A stretch of DNA of 64,000 bases from assembly GCF_032854445.1 (NCBI RefSeq), contig NC_088295.1, positions 84,676,644-84,740,643 on the forward strand, written 5' to 3'. Positions 28,545 to 64,000 of the stretch are shown in pieces. The stretch is from Liolophura sinensis (taxonomy: Eukaryota > Mollusca > Polyplacophora > Chitonida > Chitonidae). The notes under the pieces were generated by a model that saw only the letters and a list, made by a program, of their open reading frames with translations, was not told the DNA's origin and made no database searches. The position numbers were made by a program, and so were the translations under genes. Numbering within the stretch: the first letter of the stretch is position 1; each line of letters starts with the position of its first letter.

Positions 28545-28868
28545 GTATGTAGCTCAATGGTACAAGGTGCGCGACTCTCAACCATGCCCACTGAGGCACA
28601 CAGTTCAATTCCGGCCTTATGGACGAAAATTTTGTAGATTACCCCGCTCTCACCGTTCGTAGGGAACCATGACTGTAAGAATATGACGGGATCCGTAGGG
28701 CCATTTAACCGTGCTGTCCTAAACCTCCGGTGGAGGCCACATGCATGTCTTACTACACTATGCTCACCCTGGCTGTCCTCGGTTTTCTCCCACCACAATG
28801 CTGGCCGCCGTCGTATAAGTGAAATATTCTTGAGGACGGCGTAAAATACCAATTAAACAAATAAATAA
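28545..28868 (+). mobile_element. SINE with family-A tail and a different tRNA-like head
   Basis: The 5' part has an A-box-like TAGCTCAATGG (28550-28560) and a B-box-like GTTCAATTCC (28603-28612), unlike the head of other family A copies. From about 28770 it carries the shared tail: CCACAATGCTGGCCGCCGTC, GTATAAGTGAAATATTCTTG and AATAAATAAA. This looks like the same 3' module on another tRNA-derived head. Confidence 0.75.
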
Positions 28869-30498: not shown

Positions 30499-30763
30499 GG
30501 GGCCTCCGTGGCTCAGTTGGTTAGCGCGCTAGCGTAATGACCCAGGAATCTCTCACCAATGCGGTCGCTGTGAGTTCAAGTCCAGCTCATGCTGGCTTCC
30601 TCTCCGGCCGTACGTGGGAATGTCTGGCAGCAACCTGCGGATGGTCGTGGGTTTACCCCGGGCTCTATCGGGTTTCCACCCACCATAATGCTGGCCGCCG
30701 TCGTATAAGTGAAATATTCTTGAATACGGCGTAAAACACCAATCAAATAAATAAATAAATACA
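30499..30763 (+). mobile_element. SINE family A, full length with target-site duplication
   Basis: The best reference copy. It has a tRNA-like head with A box TGGCTCAGTTGG (30509-30520) and B box GTTCAAGTC (30574-30582), a middle part with CAGCAACCTGCGGATGGTCG, the tail AAGTGAAATATTCTTGAATA then CGGCGTAAAACACC, and (AAAT)n. A 9-bp direct repeat AGTGTTTAA flanks it (30488-30496 and 30764-30772), the expected result of LINE-assisted insertion. Many scattered copies show this is a successful family; the window alone cannot give its published name. Confidence 0.93.
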
Positions 30764-32705: not shown

Positions 32706-33280
32706 CATTCTTAAGAAACGACAGAGAAGAAATAACTATAGCATAACATAGTCAGCGTCTACTAACCGATCGTGATTAAGTATTGTGACATTCACTGAAT
32801 CAAGTAAGAAATCTAATACTGTAGTTCCTTAACCTTTTCTCATATGAAAGAGCAGTTTTCAATACAATTTATGCACATTTTTAATTTGATTTTGGAAACA
32901 AAACTACAGTGGTTCGATTGTCCAGTTTCAGGGGTTCAGAAAGAACATAATATTATCAGTGAAAAAGAATAATGCCTTCAGAATATGCTTGAATAATTAT
33001 CTTGCAAACATGCGAAAAGGTTGAAGAATTACAGTAAGCACATATACTTAGATAAAATATTTCACTTTTCGTGTTCCATACATGGAGCCTAACTGTTTAC
33101 AGGAATGACAAAAACCTTACGTGTGGGTTTAAATTTATATAAAAAAAGTTAATATAATAAGACTGCTATCGACACCGAGTAGAGTTGTGTAAATCACTAT
33201 CCCGCAGGAATTTGTGCCTGGGGAACATCTAAATATTTGATGTTAAATATTTTGAATTATACATATATAACATAGTTCCA

Positions 33281-33380
33281 CCGGGCTCTTCCAGGTTTCT
33301 TCTCATCATAATGGTGATCGCCGCCGTATAAGTGAAGCATTCTTGAGTACGGCGGAAAATATCAATCAAATAAATAAATA
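33281..33380 (+). mobile_element. SINE family A 3' fragment (Ly6-like intron 1)
   Basis: CACCGGGCTCTTCCAGG, CGCCGCCGTATAAGTGAAG, TTCTTGAGTACGGCGGAAAA and AATAAATAAAT: the 3' half of the family only. Confidence 0.8.
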
Positions 33381-39529: not shown

Positions 39530-39700
39530 CACTTAATTTATTTATTTATTTCATTGGTATTTTACGCCGTACTCAAGAATATTTCACTTATACGACGGCG
39601 GTCAGCATTATGGTGGGAGGAAACCGGGCAGAGCCTGGGAGAAACCCACGACCATCCGCAGGTTGCTGCAGACCTTCTCACGTACGGCCGGAGAGGAACA
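39530..39700 (-). mobile_element. SINE family A copy, partial, reverse strand, next to another
   Basis: From the A/T-rich tail ATTTATTTATTTCATTGGTA through TACGACGGCGGTCAGCATTA to GGCCGGAGAGGAA. It is truncated before the tRNA head, like its neighbour, in the same orientation. Confidence 0.85.
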
Positions 39701-42960: not shown

Positions 42961-43109
42961 ATGAGCCGACGGAAGTCCTCAACTCGAGCATCAAAGCCTG
43001 AACCGGGTTCTTCAACTGATCTGATCAAAGAGGTACAGCTCATACTGCGTTCTCGTCTCTCTCAGACATTCCTGCCAGAAGACATTCTTGGATTTGAAGA
43101 AGAAAAACA
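42961..43109 (+). CDS. ORC4: ORC4 exon 1
   Basis: Encodes [20 protein letters not shown] and [15 protein letters not shown]. The basic, Ser-rich start matches vertebrate ORC4. Donor GTAAAT, phase 2. Confidence 0.9.
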
Positions 43110-46100
43110 GTAAATGGATTTTTTGAACTCAGTGTGTTTAATAGTAATCTCTTTATAATGTGAATTCTACAGTTTGCAGTTTGTTTTACCTAGAGGATGT
43201 TATTTAAAGTGAAGACACTTAATGTACATGTACCTTTCAGGAATGAAAACTTTATAATTATTTATTTAGTTGATTCATGTTTTATGGAGTACTCAAAAAT
43301 ATTTCACTTATATGATGGCAGCCAGCATTATGGTGGGAGAAAACTGGGCAGAACCTGTGGAAACCCAGGATTAGCAAACTTTACAAACTGGAGAGGAAAC
43401 CAGCACGAGCTGGATTTGAACTCACAGCAGCCACATTGGTGGGGTGGCTCCAATATTACAATGCTGGGGGACAAGTCTGTTTGCCATGCTATAAGCGAAG
43501 CACATTATATGAAGGTTGTTAGCCTGTGACATAGATGATTTAGATAGAAACATGGTGTGACACTTTATGTTAACTGTAAACCACATCAACATAAGATCAT
43601 TGTTTCTATTTATTGCATTTATTTTATTTTATTTGAGTACAAAGAATTTACCAAATCCAAAGGTTATAATGGAGCATTTGTGTGGGGGATTGACAGTGTT
43701 ATAATGGAGCATTTGTATGGGGGATTGACAGTGTTATAATGGAGCACTTGTGTGGGAGATTGACCTGTTATAATGGAGCATTTGTGTGGGGGATTGACCT
43801 GTTATAATGGAGCATTTGTGTGGGTGATTGACAGTGTTATAATGGAGCATTTGTGTGGGGGATTGGCCGTGTTATAATGGAGCATTTGTGTGGGGGATTG
43901 ACAGTGTTATAATGGAGCATTTGTGTGGGGGATTGACCTGTTATAATGGAGCATTTGTGTGGGGGATTGACCTGTAATAATGGAGCATTTGTTGTAAGGA
44001 AGCATGTTATAATGAGGGAGAGATGTAATTCTGTACTTGTGTTTTACCAGAAATAAATTTCTTCGTCAGAACAGTCACCCTGTTTCCATACTTATTTCCA
44101 TACTTGTTTGTCATTATGATTTAGATCCATGTCAAAGACGTTTTAACAGTAATATTGATTTTTTATGTATGTATTAATTGTAAACCACACAAGGCAGTCA
44201 TGTTGATAATTCTGTACATTTCCTTGTGTATCTAGACAGTTACAGGAGGTGATAAGAAGGACGGCTGTCTATGGTGAGAGTAACTCCGTTCTGATCACTG
44301 GTCCACGTGGTGGAGGCAAGTCAGTGGTGGGTGTCTTCCCCTATCCTAATCTAAAACACCGTACAACCATAGATAGATGCTTTGTTTTTTGAGCTCGCCT
44401 GCACAGTACTAGTTTATGTCGTACCCCGAGTCAACAGGGAAAGCAATGTTAAACAAAGTGTTAGGGGTGGTTTCTCAAAATGTACAGCATGTATTGACCT
44501 GAAATTTTACAGGCATATAAAGTACAATGACACAAGAGAGTTATTCCATTACTGAGGCTCTGTGTATATATTAGTTACCATAAATTACCAAATTCACAAT
44601 TTCTGTACCGTGTATTGAGCTGAAGTTTTGCATTCATTTGTCTCTTACAGACAAGTTCTTTGTATTCTTGCTACCTAATCAAATTTAAGCAAATATCTTT
44701 TTATCCAGATACATGTACATGGCAAGGTGTGTGTTGTAAAAGAGTTGGGGTTATATTTCATAATTACAAAATATGGGTTGTTTTTACAGCTTTTCACACC
44801 TTCCATGTACAGTTCTTAACTGTGGAGTCAAGATTTTAAATCTTGTCTTTGATAATTTCACTTTACACTGAATTTTCACTTTTTTCTTTCTAGCTGCTCA
44901 AAAAGTGCCTTCAAAATCTGGAAAATGAAGAAGAAGTTGGCACAAATCTACTTCAAGTTCATCTTAATGGTAGGATATATGTATCAGTGTATTTAATAGT
45001 TGCTTCAGCTGCTTCTCAAATACAGGGAAGATAACTGATGGTACATATTGTGCTGTGTAGTTGCCTCCCCTTTTCCAAAAATGTTAATTTCAGGGTATAC
45101 AAGCTGTGAGTAAATTTTTAATAGCCATCAAAGAATATGGTTTTGTTCGTGAAAGTTCTCTTGGAATTTTTGCATGGTTTATAGTTGATTACAGGTTATG
45201 AGTTTACACTGACTTTCGTGACTTTCGTGCAGAAATACAATAAATTCTTCAAATTTCTTCTGTACTTCACCCAGTTTTCTTGGTGCATATTTTTGGCCAG
45301 CTGAATTTTGTACTCTCTGGCATAGTTCCAGCCAAGAGTTAATGATTGAGGTGAAGAAAGGGAAGAAAGCCATGAAGGGCCATTGCAGAATAGGGGTGTT
45401 TCGAGTTCAAACTCTTTTATCCATGAAAGTAGAATTTGATTTGATTGGTGTTTTTACGCTGTACTCAAGAGTATTTAACTTGTACAAGGGCGGCCAGCAT
45501 TATGGTGAGAGGAAACCAGGCAGAGTGGAGGGAAACCCATGACCATCCGCAGGCTGCTGTAGACCTTCCCACATACAGCAGGAGAGGAAGCCAGCATGAG
45601 CTGGACTTGAACTCTTAGCGATCACATTGGTGAGAGGCTCCTGGGTCATTACGCTGCATGGATGAAGGTAGAAAAAGTCCAGCTCTATCATGTGACCGGT
45701 CAGAAATGTAGGCAACTCAAAAATTCCCTATTGTCGAAACAAGATATGACTCACTGGCTGTAGACTATGTATAAATGAATACAAACTCAAAGCTTGGGAG
45801 AAAAAGCACAAGTTGTTTCAGAGAAAGTATTTAACAGGACCTGTATAAAAGTGTATCATGTATTATGTATGGTATTGATTATGTTGCCACGTAAGTGGAA
45901 TGCACTTCATTGCTTTGTAAGTGAAATATAACAATAGTTTCTTTGCCTTTTCTTATGATTTGATAGATTGGTCATGATTTGCTGTGACAGATCTTTACCT
46001 CATTTTTATTTTCTCAGTAATAAACTTCAAATTTGATTGATGCAAGAGAAACTTTATATGCCTTAATTTCGTCAGTTAATAATTTAAAAAACAAGTTGAT

Positions 46101-49100
46101 AGGAATAGTGTTTTATGATGAATCGGATTCATTGAAGATTTTTGTAAAATGTTGTTGTTTATGTTTTCTTCAGGACTGTTACAGACGGATGATAAAATAG
46201 CTCTGAAGGAGATCACTATTCAGCTTCAGTTAGAGAACACCCTGGGAGACAAAGTGTTTGTATGTGTTCAGCAGAGAACCCTATCTGCATAATAGTACAT
46301 TTGTTTGCTTTTTTACATAAACGTTATCCTTTGAGCAGTTACTGGACTCTAAATTACTTGATAAAGGGCAACTGGTATTTACATCAAAGAGAATAAGAGG
46401 GGCATTCAGGGAGCATTATCCATTTATGCTGAATTCTGTCATCTTTTTTACATCAAACATGTATGCCTGCCTGAAGCGGGGGCAGAAAATAAAGCTGATA
46501 AAAGGGAATTATTAACTGGAGTGTGTTCTATCTTAACAGGGCTCGTTTGCTGAAACACTGCAATTTTTACTTGACTCACTAAAAAGTGGTAAGTTGGCAA
46601 ATATTGATTTTGTCGTAATTCTCTGAGATTTTGTGAAGAAGTGCATTTAGATGTGGGCACAGTGTTTGATATAATATAAAGTAAAAAATGTTGCTTGCAT
46701 GGATATATGGTGGTGTATTTTACAGTCTTGCAATCACTGGCACCTTATGAATATATTGGTTATACAAATATTTAAAAAGCTGACTTAGATTTTGTGGGAC
46801 TTCAGATGAAGTAATTTGTAAAGAAGAGAGGTAATGTTGGTTGTTATCCTAAAACACAACCAGTGTTTGATTGATTTTTTGCATGTATAGGAAAATTGTA
46901 CGGAATCCGAATTGTTTTTACATCCTCCACAGCCTAATTTGGGATTTTTCCGAAATGCTTTGTGTCATCTATCGCTAACCTTTGGCTACGATTAATGCTG
47001 AACATAACATGGCTTTGATGTCATCCCAGATAAAATTACCTGACTGACATTACAGCAGCCATGTTTACACTTCAGATTAGGAAATGTACACATAGCATGG
47101 GAAAGTCAGTAATATAAATCTTTATTCAGTCCATAGTGAAAACATATTCAGTATGACTGAGCTATATCTAAACCACATGGTAAAATGACTTGAAAAATAT
47201 TTAAGTTTAAATTTTCAAGAAATTGGAGACACTTTACTCAGCATCCATGTACTGCATGTGCAAATGTATGAGTAACTCTGAGTGTAAATCATAATTTTAT
47301 TAGAGTGGACTGTGGATGGATCCCACATGATCAATGTTCTGCCATCCCTTCGCATCACAACTTTTCATTTCATTCTTGGTTTGATAAAACAATGGTGATG
47401 TCACAGAAAAGATTAATTTGTGAAGGAAATTCGGTTGACCAACTGCAACAAGATTCATTATGCTTGGTCAAATTCATGATTTTAATTAATAATTCTATAA
47501 AATTGCCTCTTGATTTGTGTGACCAGGTGATCAGCAGAGTAAGCCCATTCTCTTTGTGCTGGATGAATTTGACATGTTCGCACTTCATCGAAACCAAACC
47601 CTACTGTACAACCTATTTGATGTGGCCCAGTCGGCGCAGACTCCAATCTGTGTGCTTGGTCTTACATGTAGACTGGTAAGTATAACTCCACTGTACCCTC
47701 AAAATCACACTCATCGGGACTTGACATATCATACTGTGTGATAACCGAATCCGCGAAAAGTTGAATCAGGACAAGGGAGATAATTTGTGATGGTAGGAAT
47801 AAACAGAAATGTGGATATGAGCGCAATTGTGTGATACAAAATGTCTGTAAATAAACACAAGAATTTCAGGTATTTGTTGAACGATTAACATGGTTTTAAA
47901 TATCACATAATTCTAAAATCAAAATTCTTGCATCTGTGACAGTGAAGTCTAGAAAATATTGAACATGAGCTTGTGCGAAGTGATGTACCGCAAAACGACT
48001 TTACCTGGGACAGGCAAGTCTTGTCTACGAGGCAAGTCTTGTCTACGAGGAAGGTGATCCTTAGACTACCTTAACCAGAGTATATCAAGAATTCTTGAAT
48101 ATATTTTTTATGGTACTGGTATAGTGCCAGTCCTTAATGCCTTGATGATGTGTAAAAAAGGTAGTGGTCACAGATTGTGACGATGTTGGACTGGTGATGA
48201 AGAAACACTAAGGATTGTCACGTTGGACTGGTGATGAAGACGCACTAAGGTGATTAATAGCGATGTGTAAGGGTGTAACTGTGACAACTTTTTTTCCATC
48301 CCTGGATGTTTTGAGACCAGTATATTGTACCTTTTGTTTTTCAGAACATAGTCATTGTTCTGGCATGGATTTAGTTCAGTTGTTTAAAGGATGTGGTTTG
48401 CTAGTTTAAAAGCAAGATATATCATAAATTGGTTTAAAGTGAAATGTTGACTAAACATCATAATAGTATTGCTTATTCAATGTCAGTAATGGTATTTGAA
48501 ATGAAATATGTTTTTAGATTCTAACATAAACCATACTTTTTTGTAGGATGTGATTGAACTGTTGGAGAAGAGAGTCAAATCCCGGTTTTCTCATCGTCAA
48601 ATCCATCTGTTCACTCAGCTGAACTTTAATCAGTATGTGCAAGTGTTCAGGAACTTTCTGACACTTCCCCAAAGTTTCCCCAACAAAAAGTTTGTCTCTC
48701 AGTGGAATTCTCATGTGCAGGTAAAAACCTCATAGTCCCATGCTTTCCTTGCCTTGTCTATCTTGTCAATGTGTTGTGTGTTTCTTATATTGTTCATATG
48801 TTGAAATCAACAACTTAGCCCTCTCTTTAAATACCCATTGTGTCACCTGTTGATCATTATGCTTGATAATGCTATTAGTACCTATACCGAAACGTCGTTA
48901 AGTGAATAAACAGAAGTTGTGATTCATGTATTTGTTATGTTAAAGACTTTGTTGTCTTCAGATATAACACCTTGACAGTCTTAAGCTGTGGCGACTTTGT
49001 ACATCTAGTTGTAAACACTAATAGTCTAAAACTATAAAAGGCTTTGTTGTTCTCTTGGTGGTAAGTCCTATCTATAGTCCTTTAGCTTTAAATGAAGCAA

Positions 49101-52100
49101 TAACCTTACCGTTGTGGTAGTAACTAGCCATTTTGGTACCTGTAGTCTGTACAATTCTCTTTCGTTGTGCATATGTTGTGTATGTATTCAGTGTGGTCCA
49201 AATACATAAAACACGGCCATTATGCCGTGGCTAATGACGGGGGCAGCTGCCCCAGTGATGGTCAAATTAAACCCCAAGTAGATAAGCAAACTTTTGATTA
49301 TCCACACCTGCGGACTAATGTGTAATTAAATGTCGGCATGGACACGTGAATAAATCTATTTATACCTCCAAGTTACCAGGAAGTCAGGAAGCCAAGGGGT
49401 TTGTCCAGAGTCTAGGTTCCTCCTCTGGAAACATTTCTGCCACCATAAAAGTGGTCACACATGCGCCAAAAAAGAAAACGTGTGGTTGTTGTTGTTGTTT
49501 CAGAGTTTATCTCAGGAGCCGTCCATCATAGACATCCTGAAGAGACAGTACAGCATGTGTAAGGAGATCCGAGAACTTCAGCAACTTGTGGTTTGTGCCA
49601 TACTCTTATTTCTGAATTTCATTTCAAATGAAATTGGTACCAAGAGCTATTACAGTTAATTAAGTCCTTGATTTTATGGTCAGTTTAGAATTTAGAATTT
49701 TTCATTGGCCCATATGGATTGGTTCTGATTGATTCATCCGCATTATACGGTCACTTTTGATTTAGAGTTGTGTGTGGAGTTTGTTATTTCCCATCAGAAA
49801 CCTGAAAGCATAAAAAGTAGCATTTTAAAGCTGTTATGTGTTTCTGGAAGTTCATTTTAAAATGCTAAATTTGAGATGAAATACTGTATATTGTGCATAT
49901 ACAACTGTAGCTGTATGTACATAAATGATGTAAACAGTAATGAAATCTTCTTTGATTGTCATTTAAATGATTCTATCAGCTGCTTTTGGGCAGAATTTCA
50001 TAAACATGAATTTATTACTTAGTCTCATGTAAAATTGGTTGTAAATTACAGACGTATCCTGTTTGTAAAATCTCTACAGACCAAACATCGTTGATGATTA
50101 ATGACTTTGTTGAGTCCAGGAAACTTGCCACCTGCGACTCAAAATCTGCCATTTTACTGGGTAAGGCTGTATAAATGTGCAATTTGCTGTGTGTAATTAA
50201 AAGGCTATGAAATGTATGACCTTGCAAAATCAAGAAATAGGTTATATCTCGTGATGCTGTGTCAGCGATAACAGTTCTTATAAATCATGTTTATAGGGGA
50301 TGTGTCCAGTATTTGAGCATTAAGCTGCAGGCAAGAAATCTCTTCGCAGATATAATGAATTCTCCATATCTTATTGACATTGGCCTAAAAAAGATGAGTT
50401 TGAAAACACCAGTTTCACCCATATTAATTAAATGGGTGAAAATTTTGGTTGACATCATTTGAATAAAAACCTGAAAACCTCAGTGCCCAGTAGTTTTCCT
50501 CAGTAATCAGCATGTTTACAAAATTTCCACAAAGTTTCACATCTTGGTCAGGTGATAGATCCATTTTGTAACAAAGTATGTCCTCCCTGCATTTCCAGAT
50601 GAGTGGATTGTCCCAATGATGTTTCATTATGAATGCATCAAAAAAAGCCTAAGGCCGTGATAGAAAATCGGGATTTCTGGTTTGCTCACATTTGATCTTT
50701 GAAAGTATCTTGAGTTTTTGATGGATTTATGATGTTTGTGTTCTCATTTGACATGAAGTGTCATATGAGAGTGTCAAGTAGAACACTGAAGACATTTTTT
50801 CATGAAGTATTTGAGTTTTGTTCCCTGGTATAAAGACGACTTCTGCACATCAGATGTACTAGCTTTATTTACTTCATTTAATCATTGTTTAATGCCAAGA
50901 TGTGTTGTGTTAAAAAACAGGATTTAATGCTCTGGACTCACCTCAGAAATATTTATATATGAAGGAAGTTTCTATTTGTGTTTGATGTTGTTGTGGTTTA
51001 CAACTCCTAAAATCACCATGTCTGATGTTATTGACCGAAAATCACTTAGTTGTGGATGGAATTTCAGGTTAAGCACTATGGATATCTCATGACTATTTGT
51101 ATCCTGATACTGACCCACTGATACAGAGGACATAATTGTTGGGAAATATGGAAAAGTACCTTGTCTAAAGTTACCGCTGTCTATGGTGATAGTAAGATAA
51201 TGACGCCTCGTAACAATAGGCTGTTGATGGCTTTCATGTGGTCATTTGCATAGTATTATGTTTGTTGAAATGTGCATGTCTTTCACCAAGATGTTGTGGA
51301 AGTTTGTTGCAATTGTGTGTGAGAATTTGTTTGTAACATGTCAATTGTCTAGTGGTTTCTCCAGGCATTGTGGAAGCCTGTTGCCATTTTGTGTGGGAAA
51401 TTGTTCGTAACATATCAATTGTCTGGTGGTTTCTCCAGGCACTGTGGAAGTCTGTTGCCATTGTGTTTGGGAATTTGTCCGTAACATATCAATTGTCTGG
51501 TGGTTTCTCCAGGCACTGTGGAAGTCTGTTGCCATTGTGTTTGGGAATTTGTCCGTAACATATCAATTGTCTGGTGGTTTCTCCAGGCACTGTGGAAGTC
51601 TGTTGCCATTGTGTTTGGGAATTTGTTCGTAACATATCAATTGTCTGGTGGTTTCTCCAGGCACTGTGGAAGTCTGTTGCCATTGTGTTTGGGAATTTGT
51701 TCGTAACATATCAATTGTCTGGTGGTTTCTCCAGGCACTGTGGAAGTCTGTTGCCATTGTGTTTGGGAATTTGTTCGTAACATATCAATTGTCTGGTGGC
51801 TTCTCCAGGCATTGTGGAAGCCTGTTGCCATTGTGTTTGGGAATTTGTCCGTAACATATCAATTGTCTGGTGGTTTCTCCAGGCACTGTGGAAGTCTGTT
51901 GCCATTGTGTTTGGGAATTTGTTCGTAACATATCAATTGTCTGGTGGTTTTCTCCAGGCACTCTGGTTTCTTTCACCTCGAACTGACTGCCAAATATATA
52001 AGAGATTAATATTTTAGTAGGGCATTAAATAACAATCAAACAAATTAGTGGATAATGCCTGCAAACTTATTTATGCAAATTTGAAGTATAACTGACTTGA

Positions 52101-55100
52101 TCTCTCTCTTGATCTGTTGTCTTAAAAAAATAAATAAAAAGGGATTGCTTCATATTGTCATTCAGTTCTGTCAACGGAAATAGTGTTTTTCATGTTTTGC
52201 CACAGGTATATCTATCCTGGAGCTTTGTCTGATTATCTCTATGAAGCATTTAATGGATATATATGATGGGGAGCCATTTAACTTTGAAATGGTGTATAAT
52301 GGTAAGTATTTTAGTGACAGGCAATGTGTCCATAAGAATAAATAGGAAATGGAAAAAGCTTTTGGGCTATTTTATTCAAAAAAATTACATTCCAGGAAAC
52401 TTTTTTAACATTTAACTGAATTCAGGAAATTGAAAAAGTTTATGAAATGGAAACTTGTGAGGTTTTAAAACTCATAAATATGATTGTTGCTTTGATTTTT
52501 AAATTTCTGCCATATACATGTGTGACTGTAATTGTCTACCCCCTGGTGTGTTTATATAGAGATACCCATTGTGTGCTGTGTTTTTGCTTATGGCAGTTTT
52601 CGAGAAAAATCGAATTTAAAATTTAGGAACAAAGTTGAGACTGAGAATTGTCTCTTCAGGCCTTAAGAACTGATAGAGCATCTCACGTGGTCTTCGCAGA
52701 ACTGCATTGTTACTTGTTCATTAAGGAAATAATCTGTTCAGTATATTTTCCACTGTATTTATTCATTGGCTTATTCTCAGAGTTATGTACGATTGGTTAC
52801 TACAACATACCCTATTTCTTCTAATTTTTGGGACACTTGGTCATTTTAGCCAATATATATATGTAATTGTAGCAGGAAGATTGAGTTTCTTTTTTTCACT
52901 TGGTTAGACCATCTAATGAACAACATATGCTATCTTTACTTTTCAAAAAGGCTGTTAAATCTGATAATGTAATATTCTACTTTTAATACTACTAATATCT
53001 GCCCCAAAAATTAGAAGAATTAAGGTGGTAAACCAAATTTTTACCAGATTTAACTAGAACAGACTTCTAATTTTTGAGCTTCCGATTTTATGCATGCTCA
53101 TTTGTCAATTTATGTACATGTACCTGAGTTAAGAGACCTTCGGTCTTCAGGGAATTTTTTGAGAATGTAAACATTGGTTTGTCAGTTAGATTCTCTTGTG
53201 TTTTCATCACCATTATGCTCTTGACAAAATATATTTGAAATACTGCCAAGTGTGGAGTAAAACCTCAATCATTTATCATCATTCTAAGTCATTTTGTAAC
53301 ATCTTATCATTTTTTGTCTGTTTTAAAGTATACGCCCTAAGGACAGTTTTTTTTTTGTCTTTGAAGCACATAAACTTTCAAACCTAAAAACTTTGGTAGG
53401 CAAGCCACTTCTTCATATCATTGTACACATTGTTTTGTGGTGCACTTGTATGTGGAATGAGATGCAGTACATTTGTGTAGCGGTACTTACTGTGTATTTA
53501 TCTGAGCAAGTATCTTTGGGGCACAATGTGAGGAGTATCTGCAATGCATTTACCTGGGGAATTTTCTGAAGTACATTTATGTGAGGGAATATGTGCAGTG
53601 CATTTATGTGAGAAAGTATGAGCAGTGCATTTATGTGAGAAAGTATGAGCAGTGCATTTATGCGAGAAAGTATATGCAGTGCTTTTATGTGAGAAAGTAT
53701 GAGCAGTGCATGTATGCAAGAAAGTATGAACCATGCTTTTATTTGAGAAAGTATGAGCAGTGCATGTGTGCGAGAAAGTGTGAGCAGTGCATTTATGTGA
53801 GAAAGTATGAGCAGTGCATGTATACGAGAAAGTGTGAGCAGTGCATTTATGTGAGAAAGTGTGAGCAGTGCATTTATGTGAGAAAGTATGAGCAGTGCAT
53901 GTATACAAGAAAGTGTGAGCAGTGCATTTATGTGAGAAAGTGTGAGCAGTGCATTTATGTGAGAAAGTATGAGCAGTGCATGTATACAAGAAAGTGTGAG
54001 CAGTGCATTTATGTGAGAAAGTGTGAGCAGTGCATTTATGTGAGAAAGTATGAGCAGTGCATGTATACGAGAAAGTGTGAGCAGTGCATTTATGTGAGAG
54101 AGTATGAGCAGTGCATGTATACCAGAAAGTATGAGCAGTGCATGTGTGCGAGAAGGTATATGCAGTGCTTTTATGTGAGAAAGTATGTGCAGCGCATTTA
54201 TTTGAGAAAGTGTGAGCAGTGCATTTATGTGAGAAAGTATGAGCAGTGCATGTATGCAAGAAAGTATGAATCATGGATTTGTGAGAAAGTATGAGCAGTG
54301 CATGTATACGAGAAAGTGTGAGCAGTGCATTTATGTGAGAAAGTATGAGCAGTTCATTTATGTGAGAAAGTATGAGCAGTGCATTTATGAGAGAAGCATG
54401 AGCAGTGCAGCCATTTGAAGAAGTGTGTGCAGTACAGCTATGTGAAGAAGTGTGTGCCGTGCAGCTATGTGAGGAAGTAGACGTGTCTGCAGTGCATGTG
54501 AGTAAGTATCAGCACTGAAATTATGTGAAAGTATGTGTGGTGATGTACATGGAGAAGAGCATGAGGATTGTGGGCAGTGACAAGGGATTTAGCACCTGTG
54601 ATAATTAACTGTCATTGTATGAGTAAGGCAAGATTTTGAAAATATTCTGCTTCTTTTTCAGAATTTCAGAAGTTTGCACAAAGGAAATCTTCAATGCAGA
54701 TCTTTGACAGACCTGTTGTATTGAAGGTATGTCTATTTAGAGAGACAGAAACTTGCCAAGCAGACCTATATTTTGACACGAAGGTCAAGTTTGTAGATTG
54801 GCACATTTAAGAAAATATTAACGTTTCTCTTTGTACAAGATATAATCCCATCAGTTTGAATAATAATTTGCTTCACACTCTTTTGAACTTGTAATGGTTT
54901 TCGGTTCTGATCTTAGGCTTTAATTAAAAATGATTGGGTTAATCTTCTAATTTCTGCAGTGTGGAGGTAAGGCTCATGTTGATCATATTGAGTATGAGCA
55001 TGGTGATAGCTTACACACACAAGCATGTGTCCCTTCAAAGCTAGAAAGACAGACATTTTATGACTAAATTGATTGTCATGGTAACCAGTGGGAATTCCTG

Positions 55101-57686
55101 TGGTATATGTATCTTACTTATATCTGAGGTAATAAATACAGAGATATGGGAGTATTGGGTTAGATAGATACTAAACTCGAATGATTGGGTTGTAACATCA
55201 AAGAAGAAGGCAGTCATCCATGATTGACTGTTGTACCAGGAAAGCAGGCTCAGACATTGGTAATATACAAACTGAATCCTGTGGGCTTTTGCTCTGTCTG
55301 GTCGAGGTACATGTATTTGTAAATACAAGTAAAAATTTGAAGAGCATATCAAGTACATTAATTAATTGCATACATACTGAAATATGGCATTGTAGAACAG
55401 GGAGACAAGCTGGTAAAATTGTAGTGTTACAGCATGATAGAGCCTGTCAGTCTGCCAGTATTAAGAAGGGCTGACATATATAATATAGAGTACTATAATT
55501 AAGGGGCTTCTGATGTCAAATTTCTGCAAAATTTATTTTCTACCATGTCATAATTTATACTATATACGAAAAAGCCTGAAAATAATCCTGATCACTAGTG
55601 AATATATACATGTACAACATGTGCAAAACCATGAGTAATTAGGATTAATCTAATTATGTTCTAATAAAGACAATGGAGCAAAGCATGCACCTCTTTTTGT
55701 TTATCAGATTGAATGAATGAAACCTTTGTTTAAAGAGGGTAGGTCTGTCAAATTTTCATGTTTAAATTATCATTCAATCCTGCTTTGACCATGATGGGCT
55801 CCCCACCTTTTTGTAAATATCATTTTGTACCTCTAAAATTCTTAAGAAATGTAACTAATATGAACAGTGAATTTCAGTGATTGACAGTGCTGTTGTCAGA
55901 AAATTCCAAAAATGTGGGTACACTGAAAGTTGAGAGATGTCAGGCTTGTGTAGTAACACAGTATATATAGGATATTACTTTGAAAAGTTCTGCATGTTGG
56001 AGTACATGCCATAATACAACACAATTAGAAGAATTTAAGTAGTGTGTAGTTGTTACATGGTCTGCGTATTTCACATATTTTGGATTATTTTGATAGGTGC
56101 GTTATTTTACTATGTATGAAAGTAGACACAAAGAATCCAATATAGATATGCACATTTTCTGACAAATGTCACATGAGGATATCCTTCAACAAGATTGAAT
56201 TAAACTTTTGAAATATGCCCTTGGATGGCTTTGGATGTAAAATATTGCTGATTTAAGGATATTCTGCTGGTACATATAGATTTATCTATACGTGAATACT
56301 GCCATGTTAAAAAAATGGTGGATAACCCTAAAGCATTGATGTTATTTTGCATGTGGCAGTATCTTTGTCATTGCAGTTGTGTTAATCGAAAACATTATGT
56401 TCAAACCACATAATAAGGTTGTTAGTAAAGAGAAACATTCACAATTCAACTGGAATAGACATGTATTATGCTGATCTTGTTTGAGCATGCCCAGTTTGCT
56501 GTCACAGTTTGATAGCAATGTGACAGTCATGGAATAGCCTCTTTGGTTGTGTCATGTAGTGTACTGTCTGGTGAGAGATTGGCTGTCCTCGGTATCTAGG
56601 ACAAACTGATTGTGATGAATTGATTTTAAGCATAAGATCATCTGCGCTCGTACAAACATGTGTTGGTAGATCCATAATATTATAATCCGGAAGAATAACT
56701 AAGACGAAAGTCAGCCAGTTAGGACAATTGTCGGCTGAAAAAATCTTGCTTTAAGTTCCAGCTTTCATGAAAAGCCAGGGCTATAAATGTGGATCTGTCA
56801 GTTTCCGTTCAATAATATTTTTTTGGTGCAACCTTCAGTGAAATTTAAAAGCCTGATGTTTGTCATATTCAGCATGGGATATAAATTTGTGGAAATTGCC
56901 TGTTAGTAAAAATTTGACAATATTAAGGTGATTATGTAATTCTTTCACGTGGGAGAAGCCAAAAATGTGAAATGTGTGGACTATCCCAGCAATTTATCCT
57001 GTTGAAGACATATTTGCTGGATCAGAAAGCCATGGAAAACAGGAAAATCATGAAAACATCAAGTTCAAACAAAATATTAAGGGCTCTTTTCAGTTTTATT
57101 TTTGTTTCACATTTGGACTTTTTAGTGTTGGTTTGCCCGTGACACAAATGAAATTGGCACGGCTTAAGTGTTACATGGATAGGGGACATTTTTACCACAT
57201 GGTAGTTTTGTTGTAACCCTGTGTTATATTTGAAGCATATCATTACTAAAGGGAACTCTTGTATTCAGGATAAAATGAACGCACTAATGATAAATGTCGT
57301 GATTAAGCCATCAGAACACTACCCACAACTTCCATGTTCATTAAGGATATATTACTTGTATCCCGATATAGTCTCACTGGCCTTTGTATATTGTAATATC
57401 CACAAGGTTTTATGGTTAATGCATGCATTTAGTGTCAATTTTGTTGACGTCTGAGGAACGCGTTCATCTATCATTCATCTCGTCTCTGTCACATCTGCAG
57501 GCTTATGAGCATCTGATGGCGCTGGAACTGGTCAAACCCACCGATGGCATGGCTTCTAAAGTTCAGAAAGAATACCGCCTGATGACTCTGCTGATCCATC
57601 CTTCACAGCTGACCGAGACCCTCCAGAAATACCCACAGTGCCCTACTGAGGTCAAGCAGTGGGCAAACAGCACCGTGACTACCTGA
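42961..57686 (+). CDS. ORC4: Origin recognition complex subunit 4, 12 exons, complete
   Basis: AAA+ subunit of the origin recognition complex, which marks replication origins and loads the MCM helicase in the nucleus. The 12 exons join in frame to 438 residues; human ORC4 has 436. Walker A GPRGGGKS lies at 72-79 and Walker [10 protein letters not shown] at 158-166. LGLTCRLD and [13 protein letters not shown] follow; the latter holds the conserved arginines contacting partner subunits (family knowledge). The C-terminal winged-helix part includes [20 protein letters not shown] and ends NSTVTT. The start at 42961 gives MSRRKSS, like the MSSRKS start of vertebrates. Introns carry three minisatellites and four dispersed repeats. 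A second last exon lies at 61939, so two isoforms are possible. Confidence 0.96.
43258..43452 (-). mobile_element. SINE family A copy (ORC4 intron 1), reverse strand
   Basis: TATTTAGTTGATTCATGTTT, TACTCAAAAATATTTCACTT, GCAGCCAGCATTATGGTGGG and ACTTGAACTCACAGC-like order, moderately diverged. Confidence 0.85.
43661..43990 (+). repeat. 34/35-bp minisatellite (ORC4 intron 1)
   Basis: About ten copies of TTATAATGGAGCATTTGTGT followed by GGGGGATTGAC and either AGTG or CTG. The two length variants alternate in blocks, suggesting slippage or unequal exchange between unit types. Confidence 0.92.
44236..44326 (+). CDS. ORC4: ORC4 exon 2 (Walker A)
   Basis: Encodes [20 protein letters not shown] then [10 protein letters not shown], the ATP-binding P-loop. 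Acceptor ATCTAG, donor GTGGGT, phase 2 to 0. Confidence 0.96.
44894..44969 (+). CDS. ORC4: ORC4 exon 3
   Basis: Encodes [20 protein letters not shown] and QVHLN, matching the family EEV..N.LQVHLNG. Acceptor TTCTAG, donor GTAGGA. Confidence 0.95.
45438..45662 (-). mobile_element. SINE family A copy (ORC4 intron 3), reverse strand
   Basis: TTGATTGGTGTTTTTACGCT at the tail, GCGGCCAGCATTATGGTGAG, then GAGAGGAAGCCAGCATGAGC and GGCTCCTGGGTCATTACGCT at the head; nearly full length apart from the first 30 bp or so of the tRNA part. Confidence 0.88.
46174..46259 (+). CDS. ORC4: ORC4 exon 4
   Basis: Encodes [20 protein letters not shown] and [14 protein letters not shown] is strongly conserved in animals. 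Acceptor CTTCAG, donor GTATGT, phase 1 to 0. Confidence 0.95.
46540..46588 (+). CDS. ORC4: ORC4 exon 5 (49 nt)
   Basis: Encodes [16 protein letters not shown], the family GSFAENL.FLL block. Acceptor TAACAG, donor GTAAGT, phase 0 to 1. Confidence 0.93.
47527..47675 (+). CDS. ORC4: ORC4 exon 6 (Walker B)
   Basis: Encodes [20 protein letters not shown] and [25 protein letters not shown] is the Walker B site. Acceptor ACCAG, donor GTAAGT, phase 1 to 0. Confidence 0.97.
48160..48252 (+). repeat. Short direct duplication (ORC4 intron 6)
   Basis: GTTGGACTGGTGATGAAGA then CACTAAGG occurs twice in about 90 bp. Just upstream, CAAGTCTTGTCTACGAGG is repeated at 48016-48052. Confidence 0.75.
48547..48720 (+). 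CDS. ORC4: ORC4 exon 7
   Basis: Encodes [20 protein letters not shown], then [22 protein letters not shown] is nearly invariant in ORC4. Acceptor TTGTAG, donor GTAAAA, phase 0. Confidence 0.97.
48797..48950 (+). repeat. Dispersed repeat C, copy 2 (ORC4 intron 7)
   Basis: Same order and orientation as 6525-6690: TTGAAATCAACAACTTAGCC, TTTAAATACCCATTG, ATTATGCTTGATAATG, AGTACCTATACCGAAACGT. Unknown family. Confidence 0.65.
49504..49590 (+). CDS. ORC4: ORC4 exon 8
   Basis: Encodes [20 protein letters not shown] and EIRELQQLV, the helical lid segment. Acceptor TTTCAG, donor GTTTGT (weak), phase 0. Confidence 0.9.
49723..49890 (+). repeat. Dispersed repeat E, copy 2 (ORC4 intron 8)
   Basis: TTCTGATTGATTCATCC, TATGTGTTTCTGGAAGTTCA and GAGATGAAATACTGT follow the order seen at 640-810. 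Confidence 0.6.
50052..50160 (+). CDS. ORC4: ORC4 exon 9 (diverged)
   Basis: Encodes [20 protein letters not shown] and [16 protein letters not shown]. Its 37 residues (the last completed by exon 10) equal the human segment in length, and DSK plus the final Gly align, but the usual LALNRV start is replaced. The frame before and after fits exactly (acceptor ATTACAG, donor GTAAGG). Confidence 0.8.
51288..51962 (+). repeat. 74-bp minisatellite, about nine units (ORC4 intron 9)
   Basis: Units of 74 bp built from TCAATTGTCTGGTGGTTTCT, CCAGGCACTGTGGAAGTCTG, TTGCCATTGTGTTTGGGAAT and TTGTCCGTAACATA. The central six are nearly identical, while the outer ones are diverged, the pattern of unequal exchange. 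Each unit contains TTTCTCCAG followed by GC, a fair splice-acceptor match, although no exon is known here. Open frames reappear every 74 bp simply because the unit is repeated. Confidence 0.95.
52206..52301 (+). CDS. ORC4: ORC4 exon 10
   Basis: Encodes [20 protein letters not shown] and [10 protein letters not shown], a near-match to the vertebrate winged-helix start. Acceptor CCACAG, donor GTAAGT, phase 1 to 1. Confidence 0.95.
52808..53030 (+). repeat. Dispersed repeat D, copy 2 (ORC4 intron 10)
   Basis: Aligns with 3143-3360: TTTAGCCAATATATATATGT, ACCATCTAATGAACAACATA and AATGTAATATTCTACTTTTA in the same order and orientation. Confidence 0.7.
53530..54480 (+). repeat. 27-bp minisatellite with 81-bp higher-order period (ORC4 intron 10)
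   Basis: About 33 copies of a unit near GTGAGAAAGTATGAGCAGTG plus CATTTAT. Between about 53823 and 54110 the units fall into sets of three (two ending in CATTTAT, one in CATGTATAC), giving an 81-bp period. The last copies (from 54410) drift to GTGAAGAAGTGTGTGC. Because 27 is a multiple of three and the unit lacks stops, frames stay open for more than 230 codons on both strands; this is not evidence of a gene. Confidence 0.95.
54662..54726 (+). CDS. ORC4: ORC4 exon 11
   Basis: Encodes [20 protein letters not shown] and LK, conserved across animals. Acceptor TTTCAG, donor GTATGT, phase 1 to 0. Confidence 0.94.
54727..57500 (+). other. ORC4: ORC4 intron 11
   Basis: A 2.8-kb intron; its last 1 kb (from about 56528) is the left part of the tandem duplication. 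No other gene recognised. Confidence 0.65.
57501..57686 (+). CDS. ORC4: ORC4 exon 12 (terminal exon, copy a)
   Basis: Encodes [20 protein letters not shown], then [14 protein letters not shown] and [15 protein letters not shown] before TGA. It matches the family C-terminus (FEHLQQLELIKP ... CPTDVRQWA). Acceptor CTGCAG, phase 0, interchangeable with copy b at 61939. Confidence 0.95.
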   Translation, partial: AYEHLMALELVKPTDGMASKVQKEYRLMTLLIHPSQLTETLQKYPQCPTEVKQWANSTVTT

Positions 57687-58805
57687 GGGGTGACGAAGAC
57701 TAAAGCCTGTCCTCTAACCGCTAAGAAAGATCTTCGAGAATGTGACAAGACTAGAATCCTTAATTGACCATTGACTTTGTGGGCTTTCAAGCTTGTCCTA
57801 GGACTGGTGATAACATTACATTAGTGAAAGTCCGTACAGCCAGAATTTGTTGTGACTGCTTAGTAATTTGGCATTTGATTAGACCAGCTATGCTGGTCAA
57901 TTACAGACATACTGTAATTCTTCAACCTTTTTGCATGTTTGTAAGGTGTTCATTCAAGCATATTCTGAGGACATTATTCTGTGTTGACCGATAAAGTTAT
58001 GCTTTTTGTGAAGTCCGGAAAATGGCCAATCCAACTGGTGTCTCCACTATCAAATTAAAAATGTGCATAAATTGTACTGAAAGTTGCTCTTTTATATGCG
58101 AAAAGTTTGAGGAATTAGGGTGGACTTGTATCAAGATATTTCTTGTGAGCTGTATTATAGCTGTGGCAGCTAGCCTGAGGATAACTTCATTCACAGACAG
58201 ACACCTGTGAAAAACACCGGTGGAAAAGGGACTGATGTGTCATAGAGAACGGTGGTGGGCTATTGTCTTTCTGAGAGCAGGTGGTTAGGGGCAGCTATAC
58301 TGGTACCCATGGGGTGGATCCGTGAACAAAACCACTATGTGCCAGACACAACAGTTTAATTTTTACGTCCAACCTTCGTGAGGGAAAAGCTTGTGTAATG
58401 CAATTCTCTGCATAGCGATGGCCTCTAGTGTGTACCTGAGACTAAGTACCTAGAAAGGACAGACTGGAGAGCTCGCTTGGTAGGTCCTTGCGCCTTCAAA
58501 AGTTGTATAGCTCCGTCTTAGTTTCATCTGGACATTCCTCTTTATGCCACAATCCCAGTCGTTTTGGCTCAGTTTAAGAGGTTTGGGAATAATCACGACC
58601 TTCTAGATTAGGTTGGTATAAATACCAAGATTTGAAATCAATATAATACATGTACACACAACATAGTACATGTATGTACTAATCTGCTACCGTATGCCAC
58701 TGGAACAATCCTTGCATAAATGAGAAGATATTAAAGTCGCACTGTATTAACACAAGAATTGATATAGGAGAGTGTATGAAATCATCTTTGTAATGTATGA
58801 TGTTC

Positions 58806-58811
58806 ATTAAA
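58806..58811 (+). terminator. ORC4: Putative poly(A) signal after ORC4 copy a
   Basis: ATTAAA in the context TTCATTAAAGATATTTT, about 1.1 kb after the stop. The same context is kept in the duplicate (63095-63100), which supports its use. Confidence 0.5.
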
Positions 58812-58839
58812 GATATTTTATGACACATTTTACATAGTT

Positions 58840-59795
58840 ATCTTACATTATGGCATCGGTGATTTGGTTGGTTTGTGCTATCTGTGACAAGGGGGCGATT
58901 ATACGAGGCCATTCAAGAAAAAAAAATTAAAATCTTTCCAAAACGCTCGGTCTTTGTTTCTGAAAATTAAAATTTGGATACATTTGACTCAAGACTGATG
59001 AAGTGGACAAAATTTTACTTTATAAACCCGAAAAATAAGCTTTAAGATCGTATTTCATGTTTTGACTTTAGTCAGAAGTGCCTTTGTGGAATCGGTTCAG
59101 GGTGTCTGTAATCCAAAATGGCGTCATGAACCAGACACCTGGTTTGTCATATATGTTTCTGTTCTTTAGAGATGACGTCACTGGACACGATGAGCTTGTG
59201 TGCGAGGCGGAATTTATCCCCTTTACTACGTACCAGTCCAGTCTTTAGCCTATATTGTGTCTGTGAAGGAAGTTCTATTCACCTGAGAGTCTTTTCTTAT
59301 AGCAGGAAGTATGTGGAAGCTCAACGCTACATCTATAATCTTTCAACATCTACATCCAAACTAATATCTTCTGTTCACTTTCTGTTGGACTTGATCTAAT
59401 GTCAAGAAACTGGACGTCAGGGTAAAGGTTAAAAGCAGTTACTGTTGACTTGATTTATAGTCAAAACTTTGACCCATTTTATAAGCAAGTTGTTCATCTG
59501 TGTTAAGTTTGGATGAAACGATATCTTTGTTGTCGAATATAGAAAAAAGGTTCCCTGGAATAGAAAAGAGTTCTCGAACATCAATCTGTCAGCGATATTG
59601 TGCAGTCTCTCGGATGTTTTCCCCAGTCGGTCATTTAGGTTGGCGTTTCCAACTTGTCCGCAGCTGGCTGATTTAGAAAAGCTGGAAAAACTAATCGGCT
59701 CAGCGAGGGTTCAAGCGAAATGCACACCAATTGGTGATACATATGTACATCACTGGTCTTTTCTGCACGAAGTTGAAGGCATTACGATTGACACG
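58840..59795. other. Region downstream of ORC4 copy a
   Basis: No gene. The part from about 59520 pairs with 63740-63990 of unit 2. Confidence 0.6.
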
Positions 59796-59799
59796 TTGC

Positions 59800-60010
59800 T
59801 ATTTATGTATTTGAGTGGAATTTTTAACCGTACTCAAGAATATTTCAGTTGTAAGTCGGTGGCCAGCATTATGGTTGCCTTCAGATCTTCCTGCGCACGG
59901 CCGACGAGAAAGGTAGCATGAGCTGAAGCAGCTCACAATGTTGGCATTGGTGTGAGGCTCCTGGGTCGTGCTGCACTAGCAAACTAATCACTAAGACACA
60001 GAGGTTCCTG
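59800..60010 (-). mobile_element. SINE family A copy, reverse strand
   Basis: TTAACCGTACTCAAGAATAT, GGTGGCCAGCATTATGG, ATGAGCTGAAGCAGCTCACA, GTGTGAGGCTCCTGGGTCGT and a tRNA-like head ending in GAGGTTCC. It lies just after the end of unit 1. Confidence 0.8.
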
Positions 60011-60960
60011 ATTGTCACTTTGTGGTCATGAGTTCAGTTTGACTATATGGAGGTATACTGTAAATATAAGGATTTGTGTTGTTTTGGTCGACATACTGGC
60101 ATGGTTTTCACACGTTTTGGGGTTTAGGAACTCATTTAATTTAACCTATTTAACAAATAACAAAGACGATTGTACAGTGAATTTGTCATATCCCATCTTA
60201 TTCCATCTCAATGTAAATGAGAAGGAAAACAGGCCTTCTATGTGTGTACAGCTTCTGGAAAGGGCCAACGAATTCACATAAACTCTAATGTACAAGGTTA
60301 GAATTCAACTACTTTGAATGGACCAGTCAAACACCGAATCGTGTGTTTTGAAACTCTGGATTATGTTATGTCATCATTTAAGGGAAAAAAAGTTGGTCGT
60401 GCAAAATATTAGACTGAGGCAGTCTTATTTTATGATTTATTGGTTAAAGCCCTTCAGAAGAATTTTACACTTATTTGACGGGAATCAAGTTTATGGATGC
60501 AGACAACTGCACAGAGTAAGTCAGCGCCTTCTCTAGATACATTGCAGACATCATGATGTAACTCCAGCCTAAGCAACGAAAGATGCATTACAACATGTAG
60601 ACAACCCTGTGCGATCCCACGATAACCATTAGTATTGTAGCTGTACGGCACGGTCTACATGGCGATTTTAACAGGGGTATTGAATATAGAAACTAATGAA
60701 AGAGGATTACATTATCATTGTGAATTGTGGTCTTGGGAATAATTGTATCCCGCTGGTAGTTCTGTCCAAACATAAATTCAGCTGAACTGAAAGAAAACGG
60801 AAACCGTGCTAATCTGTCATAGTGTGGACGGTTCGTGTGTTTTGCACTTGGATGTCAATGTTGTAGTGGCGTGACTAAATGCGTGTACAAACCACATACA
60901 TGTATTCATATATGTGTGAACGAGATCAGTTTGCTCTCAGAAGTCGATGAAAAAAGGGTA
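60010..60960. other. Spacer between the two duplication units
   Basis: Holds a very decayed SINE A-like piece at about 60430-60535 (TTACACTTATTTGACGGGAA). No gene is seen. Confidence 0.5.
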
Positions 60961-61517
60961 GTCATGGTATAGTCTCTTTGATTGTGTCATTTAGTCTACT
61001 ACCTGGTGAGAGATCGCCTGTCTTCAGTACTTAGGAATAACGGTGATGAATGAATTTTGAACTTAAGACTGTCTATGCTCATACAAACGTGTAGATCCCA
61101 TATGTTATACTGTAACCACAAGGATGACAAAAGTCAGCCGGTTATAAAGATAATTGTCAGCTGTAAAACACTTGCGTTAAAGCCACGTTTAATGAAAATC
61201 CAGGGCTGTAAATTTGGATCTCTCATGATGGTATAAAATAAACTTTTTGATGCAGGATTATTTTATGTAACCTTCGATCAAATTTTAAAATCAGCCTGAT
61301 CCATGCATACGTTTAGCGTTGGATATAAATTGGTTTAATTTACTTGTCATTAAAAATTCGCCGTAGTAACGGGAATGATAATGGCTGCACCTATTACGTC
61401 AGCTGATTTGAATGACTGAGAGCAATTATCTCAAATCGAAGTCCATGACTGACCATAAACTGCTGGTGGGCACTCGTGAAGAGATTAGAAGGTTAAAATT
61501 TTGTTAACTGGCATATG

Positions 61518-61690
61518 TATTTATTTGATAGGAGATTCAAAAATACCCAAGAATATTTCACTCATACGCCGTTGGCCAGCGTTATGGTGGGAGGGGAAAC
61601 GAACGACTATCCTGGTAGATATTGCCTCGTACAACCGGAGAGGAAGATAGCGTGAAATGGACTTCGACCAGCTGACAGTAGCAATGGCAA
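61518..61690 (-). mobile_element. SINE family A copy inside duplication unit 2
   Basis: TTCAAAAATACCCAAGAATA, TTTCACTCATACGCC, GGCCAGCGTTATGGTGGGAG and CCGGAGAGGAAGATAGCGTG in reverse order of the family. The matching part of unit 1 shows no SINE. Confidence 0.75.
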
Positions 61691-61938
61691 GGGCAGTTTG
61701 TTGTAGCCCCATGTTACATGCATGTGTTCCATGCTGACGAAGCTATCAAAACACTACCCACAAATTCCATGTTCATCAAGGATATATTCCTTGTATCCCG
61801 ATATAGACTCTTACTGGCCTTTATATATTATCATATCCACAGGGTTTTATTGTTTAATGCATGTATGTAGTGTAAGTTGCGATGGTGTCTGAGGAACGCG
61901 TTCATCTATCATTCATCTCGTCTCTGTCAAATTCACAG

Positions 61939-62157
61939 GTTTATGAGCATCTGATGGCGCTGGAACTGGTCAAACCCACCGATGGCATGGCTTCTAAAGT
62001 TCAGAGAGAATACCGCCTGATGACTCTGCTGATCCATCCTTCACAGCTGACTGAGACCCTCCAGAAATACCCACAGTGCCCTACTGAGGTCAAGCAGTGG
62101 GCAAACAGCACCGTGAAAGTGCCCAGAGTATGTGAAAAGACTGGAATACTTAACTGA
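61939..62157 (+). CDS. ORC4: Duplicate ORC4 terminal exon (copy b)
   Basis: Encodes [34 protein letters not shown] and QWANST, then a new end VKVPRVCEKTGILN before TGA. Against copy a I count three substitutions in the first 178 nt (Ala to Val, Lys to Arg, one silent), then a deletion of roughly 50-60 bp that replaces TVTT by the longer tail. The acceptor TTCACAG keeps phase 0, so splicing from exon 11 to either copy gives an intact protein. No other ORC4 exon is duplicated. It may be an alternative last exon or an unused relic; transcript data would tell. Confidence 0.8.
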   Translation, partial: VYEHLMALELVKPTDGMASKVQREYRLMTLLIHPSQLTETLQKYPQCPTEVKQWANSTVKVPRVCEKTGILN

Positions 62158-62651
62158 CCATTGACTTTGTGGGCTTTCAAGCTTGTGCCCAGGCGGGTGA
62201 TAACATTGCATTAGTGAAAGTCCGTACATCCAAAATTGGCTGTTATTGCTAGGTTGTTGGCCTTTGATTGGACCAGGTACGTTTGTCAATGATGGCCATA
62301 AACTGGTCTCAAGACATTTCTTGTGGACTGTATTATAGCTGTGGCACTTAGGCCTAGGGTAATTTTCATTCACAGACACCAGTTAAAAACGGACGGAAAA
62401 GGGACCGATGCGTCAGGGAGAACTGTGGTGGGCTATTGTCTTTCTGAGAGCAGACGTTAGCGAGACACAACAGTTTAGTCTCATGAGGAAGAATGCTTGA
62501 GTAATGCAATTCTACTCCTATCAATGACCTCTTGTGTGTACCTGAGATGAACTACCCAGAAAGAAAGACTGAAGAGGTCCCTTACGTCTTCAACAGTAGT
62601 ATACCTCCGTCTAGTTTCTACTGGACGCTCATCTTTGTGCCACAGTTCCAC

Positions 62652-62788
62652 GGCCCAGTTTCACAAAGATGTCTTACATGTACGATACTACATGTATACG
62701 GCAATGGTAGGGTAACTCTCACCTACAAAATATCGAACGACAAATGTACGATAAAGAATGTCGTACACCACTTTGTGAAACTGGACCC
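62652..62788. mobile_element. 137-bp MITE with terminal inverted repeats
   Basis: Starts GGCCCAGTTTCACAAAG and ends CTTTGTGAAACTGGACCC, inverted repeats of about 17 bp with one mismatch. Subterminal GTCTTAC and GTCGTACA are also roughly inverted. Unit 1 of the duplication has the uninterrupted flanks at about 58550-58565, so this is an insertion after duplication. Confidence 0.85.
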
Positions 62789-63094
62789 TGTTTTGGAGCA
62801 GTTTGAGAAGGTTTTGGAATAATGATGACCTTCTAGATTAGGCTTGTATAAATACAAAGAGCTAGAATAAATATTATTGATTCATACATGTATACAGAAC
62901 TTAGTATACACGTGCTAATCCGTTACCCTAATCAGAACAAACTTTGCATAAATGACGATGTATTATTTATTCATTTACTGATATATTTATTCATATACTC
63001 CGGAATATGAAAACATTTTAAAGTTGCATTGTATTAACACAAAACTTGGTATCAGAGTGTGTATGAAATCATATCTGTTATGGCTGCAATATGC

Positions 63095-63100
63095 ATTAAA
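63095..63100 (+). terminator. ORC4: Putative poly(A) signal after ORC4 exon copy b
   Basis: ATTAAA in GCATTAAAGATATTTTT, equivalent to that of copy a. Confidence 0.45.
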
Positions 63101-64000
63101 GATATTTTTTTCATAGAACCTTTCATTCGGTCGGCTCAAATTATGGTATCTATGATGTGTTTGGTGTCTTTGATATGTTTGGTTTCGGGTGTATTTGATG
63201 TGGTTGGTTCATAATCATGCCTGGTATATAACTGTAAAAACTTTGAACATCCAGGTATGGATATTTTGTTTCCTGAGGAAGATCGAAAGTTTGGAGTTTG
63301 GCCCAAAATGGGGTTGGGAGACAGGCCCAGGTTCTATGAGGTCTGTTGTTTGTATATAGCATCTCTGGTCATGGTCAGCTGGAAAATAAGCGGAAAACCA
63401 TGTATAGTAATCTTTAGTCTTAGTGTTTTGCAAGTATTTTTATTTCCTTGAAGGTGAAGGCCATCTTGATGACGGTCAACTCGGAAGCTCAAATCTGCAT
63501 GTACATCGTCGGAATAATTGTTTCAACGTCAATATGCAGACTGATTTTCTTTTGAAGATGATCTTATGATGAAATCATGACGACAGATTCTGTCCGAGTA
63601 TTAGTAAGGAATTAAAATTTGCTTGAATTTTTACTTAAACAGTTATTGTCGACTATACAAATCTTATTTAATTTGCTTAAAGGTTACCGTTGATTTGGCG
63701 TACAACCAAAATAATACATTTTTAAGTCTGGATAATCTTGGATGCGTAGAATAGATAAAAGCCAATCTAGAGTCTAGATAGAATATGGAGTTTCCATACA
63801 TTTGTCTATCGGCGTTGTCCAGCTTTCTACCAGATAATCTGTGCCCTGTCTCTTAGTGAAATTGAAGTTTCCAGCCTGTCCGCAGCTGGTTTGATTATAA
63901 AAGCTGGAAAAGTGAACGGTTCAGGTGTTCAAGCGAAATGTACACCAATAGCAGGTGTACACCGCTGTTCGAGATGACATTACCATAAATAGAGGTATAC

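Follow-up and report, generated by a model that had tools for sequence, protein, structure and literature searches.

ORC4 is needed to start DNA replication, and in the chiton Liolophura sinensis its last coding exon is followed, about 4.4 kb downstream, by a second copy. Does the gene use both copies as alternative last exons, or is the second one spliced rarely or never? The locus was analysed in a window of 64,000 nucleotides (the whole stretch of DNA studied), which occupies 84676644–84740643 of scaffold 1. Positions are those of the window; joined coordinates are those of the window plus the next 40 kb, up to 104000.

The L. sinensis ORC4 gene comprised 12 coding exons on the + strand, from 42961 to 57686. 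Matching of the NCBI protein placed exons 1 to 11, all on the + strand, at 42961–43109, 44236–44326, 44894–44969, 46174–46259, 46540–46588, 47527–47675, 48547–48720, 49504–49590, 50052–50160, 52206–52301 and 54662–54726, the last ending in the donor at 54726. The annotated terminal coding exon, used by the NCBI protein, was at 57501–57686 on the + strand including the stop (designated 12a). Exons 1–11 and 12a, when spliced, encoded a product 100% identical to the NCBI L. sinensis ORC4-like protein (438 aa). This product matched Pfam ORC4_C (E 8e-53) and, above the cut-off, AAA families, with an AAA+ ATPase region preceding the ORC4 C-terminal domain. Exon 12a matched the human ORC4 of solved structures (E 9.9e-16), and human ORC4 was 54% identical to a preliminary gene model of the window's ORC4. 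The genome (609,464,459 bases in 632 contigs, the window's scaffold 1 having 96,433,062 bases) was searched with the NCBI protein, and 14 of 14 candidates were scored. All 12 matches with E ≤ 0.001 were at this locus, both copies of the last exon included, indicating that ORC4 is single-copy. The species of the Liolophura assembly described in PMC11068029 has since been renamed L. sinensis (PMC12441733). Three minisatellites were also seen in ORC4 introns: a 35-base unit repeated 9.6 times (43663–43992), a 74-base unit repeated nine times (51295–51966) and a 27-base unit repeated 34 times (53570–54479), which ended about 180 bases before exon 11.

A first-pass annotation had described a second terminal exon with a phase-0 acceptor, an open frame, its own stop and an ATTAAA signal, and all of these were found. 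The duplicate exon (12b) was at 61939–62157 on the + strand, open to a new stop, which is included in these limits. Both exons were preceded by AG and could join the donor at 54726 in phase 0. They differed at three of 177 shared bases: 57502 (A in 12a to V in 12b), 57568 (K to R) and 57614 (silent; all in 12a coordinates). Translation of both exons also confirmed that the products differ at the extreme C-terminus: that of 12a ended in NSTVTT and that of 12b in NSTVKVPRVCEKTGILN, an extra 13-residue end replacing the TT. From the last shared codon to the next shared stretch there were 39 bases in 12b versus 87 in 12a; because 12b is 48 bases shorter here, the old stop and the early 3′UTR are missing and the C-terminus is altered. 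A word search located ATTAAA downstream of 12a at 58806–58811 and downstream of 12b at 63095–63100, both on the + strand, and further ATTAAA or AATAAA words were also present in the stretch. A crude matrix from ten ORC4 acceptors gave scores of 7.5 for 12a and 6.4 for 12b, the used acceptors scoring from −3.4 to 9.6 when left out one at a time. The 12b acceptor thus equalled several used ones in score, indicating that it is strong enough to be spliced. A DNA search of the genome with 57400–57800 found only the source and this copy, and no further copy of the exon was detected in the 40 kb past the window.

Self-BLAST revealed that the exon is part of a tandem duplication of about 4.4 kb, its blocks pairing 56459–60561 with 60898–64724. 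The first unit (56459–60897, + strand, its right edge set by the start of the second) contained the end of intron 11, exon 12a, the 3′UTR and the 3′ flank; the second, on the same strand, ran from 60898 to 64000 and beyond the window end, reaching position 64724 or further (joined coordinates). The duplication proposed in the first-pass annotation was therefore real in kind and unit length, but the extent given there, 57501–62157, was too narrow. Around the exons, 57300–57911 and 61735–62300 matched at 82% (E 1.5e-154), a similarity far above chance. In five distal noncoding blocks, 339 of 1459 aligned sites differed (23%; 0.161 to 0.302 per block), plus indels, a lower bound counted over alignable blocks only. 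The near flanks were intermediate (53 of 368 sites, 14%), and the shared exon differed at only 1.7% of its sites. Judged from these sequences, the 3′ end of ORC4 was evidently duplicated long ago, and the alignable distal flanks are old.

Some repeats lay in and around the duplicated DNA. The 3′UTR of 12a carried an insertion-like stretch of some 200 bases (57911–58117, + strand) with no counterpart at the corresponding place behind 12b; it was 80% like 32822–33036 in inverse orientation and is likely a mobile element. A dispersed repeat, which we would guess to be SINE-like, had several copies on both strands (59800–59875, 61514–61594, 30682–30757, 39539–39614, 28792–28867, 19493–19685 and 33307–33380). 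An open frame on the − strand (21965–22447) had weak matches to DUF3504 and Phage_integrase, both below the cut-off, resembling a fragment of a tyrosine recombinase.

False duplications, from uncollapsed haplotypes or mis-joins, arise in assemblies of heterozygous marine genomes. A haplotypic duplicate would show divergence near the heterozygosity over its whole length. Heterozygosity of L. sinensis is 1.24% according to the available text of PMC11068029, whereas the distal flanks differed by 16–30%, with indels in addition. HiFi reads averaged 8,347 bp, longer than the 4.4 kb separating the copies, though coverage was only 14X, and purge_dups had been applied on the basis of HiFi depth (available text of PMC11068029). 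Neither the window nor the 40 kb after it contained any N. The divergence of the flanks, the read length and the purging led us to reject the haplotype artefact; an assembly error at this locus is very improbable, and the duplication is taken as real.

Why, then, are the two exons so alike? At fourfold sites, one of 29 differed in the exon, compared with 23% in the distal blocks (Fisher p 0.005) and 14% in the near flanks (p 0.07). Over 41 synonymous sites a single difference was observed, where 9.5 were expected at the distal rate (p 0.0008) and 5.9 at the near rate (p 0.019). The most homogenised stretch, a proposed conversion tract, was 57449–57677 on the + strand, pairing with 61887–62115, with seven differences in 229 bases; a 43-base intron stretch upstream of the exon was identical in both copies. 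Near-identity thus included silent and intron sites and was bordered by older flanks on both sides, as expected of non-allelic gene conversion, with one exception: five of the seven differences were clustered within 11 bases spanning the splice acceptor (57492–57502 and 61930–61940).

Selection on the protein spares amino acids only, and here silent sites were spared too, suggesting that recent conversion is a better reading than protein-level selection alone. The divergence of the exon (1.7%) is also close to the heterozygosity, in keeping with this reading. Against conversion, the tract is not clean, although the patch at 57492–57502 may be an island that escaped it, and with the near flanks as the yardstick the fourfold comparison is weak and the synonymous one moderate. 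The identical intron stretch and the conserved silent sites would also be seen if nucleotide-level constraint, e.g. by splicing enhancers, held the exon and adjoining intron in both copies. This constraint would, however, have to act on nearly every silent site and yet allow two amino-acid changes, and it is an improbable sole cause. We infer that gene conversion made the exons alike.

The evidence is thus best read, with fair though not full confidence, as an old 3′ duplication with a terminal exon 12b that conversion has refreshed and that is spliced rarely or never. The 3′ end of ORC4 would have been duplicated in tandem long ago, leaving 12b 4.4 kb downstream; recent non-allelic conversion would then have rewritten the exon together with some tens of adjoining bases, so that 12b looks fresh and open while the surrounding DNA is old. 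Transcription would meet 12a first, and with its slightly better acceptor and own polyadenylation signal 12a would take the transcript, leaving 12b spliced rarely or not at all.

If conversion was recent, the open frame of 12b would say little on function. In simulations the 59-codon frame stayed open in 87% of cases with three random substitutions and in 23% with 40. The changes between the exons, three events in all, were two amino-acid to one silent; their likelihood was 0.43 under omega 1 compared with 0.04 under omega 0.05, which weakly favours relaxed evolution. The exons were also compared with 119 homologues, i.e. the best 120 of 3013 database matches minus the L. sinensis protein, many of them nearly identical sequences from oysters. 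Exon 12 began with A in 118 of these and with S in one, as against V in 12b. This conserved alanine was within a helix (372–384) of a predicted model of L. sinensis ORC4, a fair model used for helix limits only (mean pLDDT 74, pTM 0.55, last residues below 50). After the shared Trp, all 119 homologues ended within 5–7 residues, compared with 18 in 12b. The K/R site was K in 96 homologues and R in the other 23; the K-to-R change is therefore mild and counts against the reading of 12b as an idle exon. Exon 12b alone matched Pfam ORC4_C only partially (E 7e-05; 22.7 bits against a cut-off of 25.3), as expected of a single exon.

Is 12b used at all? Protein database queries with the full-length protein, a 126-residue and a 72-residue sequence gave 3013 matches (120 listed), 17 and 7, respectively. 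The only Liolophura ORC4 among the matches listed ended in 12a, in a cluster with one member sequence, and no other chiton was recognised by name among them. NCBI labels alternative products "isoform", and the L. sinensis protein name carried no such label. The 4-residue words of the 12b tail occurred in none of 144 retrieved proteins. The dual-ended ORC4 put forward in the first-pass annotation was not borne out by these results or by the departure of 12b from the homologue layout, and we infer non-use of 12b. A literature search on ORC4 with "alternative last exon" found nothing, and no title retrieved was on ORC4 isoforms, judged by title.

A working 12b would mean that 12a is skipped in some tissue or stage and that ORC4 gains the 13-residue end in place of TT. 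In favour of this, 12b has an intact acceptor, frame, stop and ATTAAA; the terminal exons are homologous, in tandem and of compatible phase, as mutually exclusive tandem terminal exons are; and swaps between tandem terminal exons form a class known to be productive (available texts of PMC9741552 and PMC9013439). Against it stand the single listed protein and the unmatched tail, the replacement of an alanine that is almost invariant, a C-terminal end unlike those of the homologues and, weakly with three events, the ratio of amino-acid to silent changes. A test for competing RNA pairing gave no sign that the shared intron stretch has a pairing site in intron 11: for one pair of 46-base stretches, scanned against 120-base targets taken every 60 bases, pairing was equalled or beaten by 37 of 60 shuffles (12a) and 17 of 60 (12b). 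Use of 12b in this way is unlikely. It is similarly doubtful that the chiton makes two ORC4s through conversion-maintained tandem last exons, the 12b form, with Val for the winged-helix Ala and its 13-residue end, serving a tissue- or stage-specific origin recognition complex.

Exon 12b might instead end a small gene of its own or a fusion transcript. No support for either was found: tblastn with the ORC4 product over 62158–104000 (joined coordinates) gave no credible ORC4 match, only two weak ones (E 3 and 5.1), and the missing tail among the retrieved proteins counts here as well. This origin is extremely unlikely. The refreshed and probably idle 12b carries a caution, that an open frame and intact splice signals need not mean a working alternative exon where conversion may have refreshed it. 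Were 12b used, a single animal would have two alternative C-termini for ORC4, differing in the winged-helix part, which is unusual among replication genes.

Partial 3′ gene duplications can be kept alike by non-allelic gene conversion. The chiton locus shares with them a near-identical stretch within an older duplication and differs in having only one copy pair and a five-difference patch inside the tract. Tandem duplicated terminal exons are already a known kind of arrangement. Among human substitution events of tandem duplicated exons, 77 of 236 change the C-terminus (available text of PMC9741552), and like chiton ORC4 these genes have homologous 3′ coding exons in tandem able to swap the C-terminus; the word ORC4 is absent from the main text of that paper. 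The human set, as given there, consists of annotated splice events, most of them ancient and with good expression, whereas the chiton 12b is known from genome sequence alone. In Drosophila, pip has tandem terminal exons and PGRP-LC has 3′ variable regions, and for both the available text of PMC9013439 reports exclusive choice with competing RNA pairing, in contrast to the negative pairing test in chiton ORC4. As described there, both have terminal exons duplicated together with their flanking intron, a structure like that of chiton ORC4.
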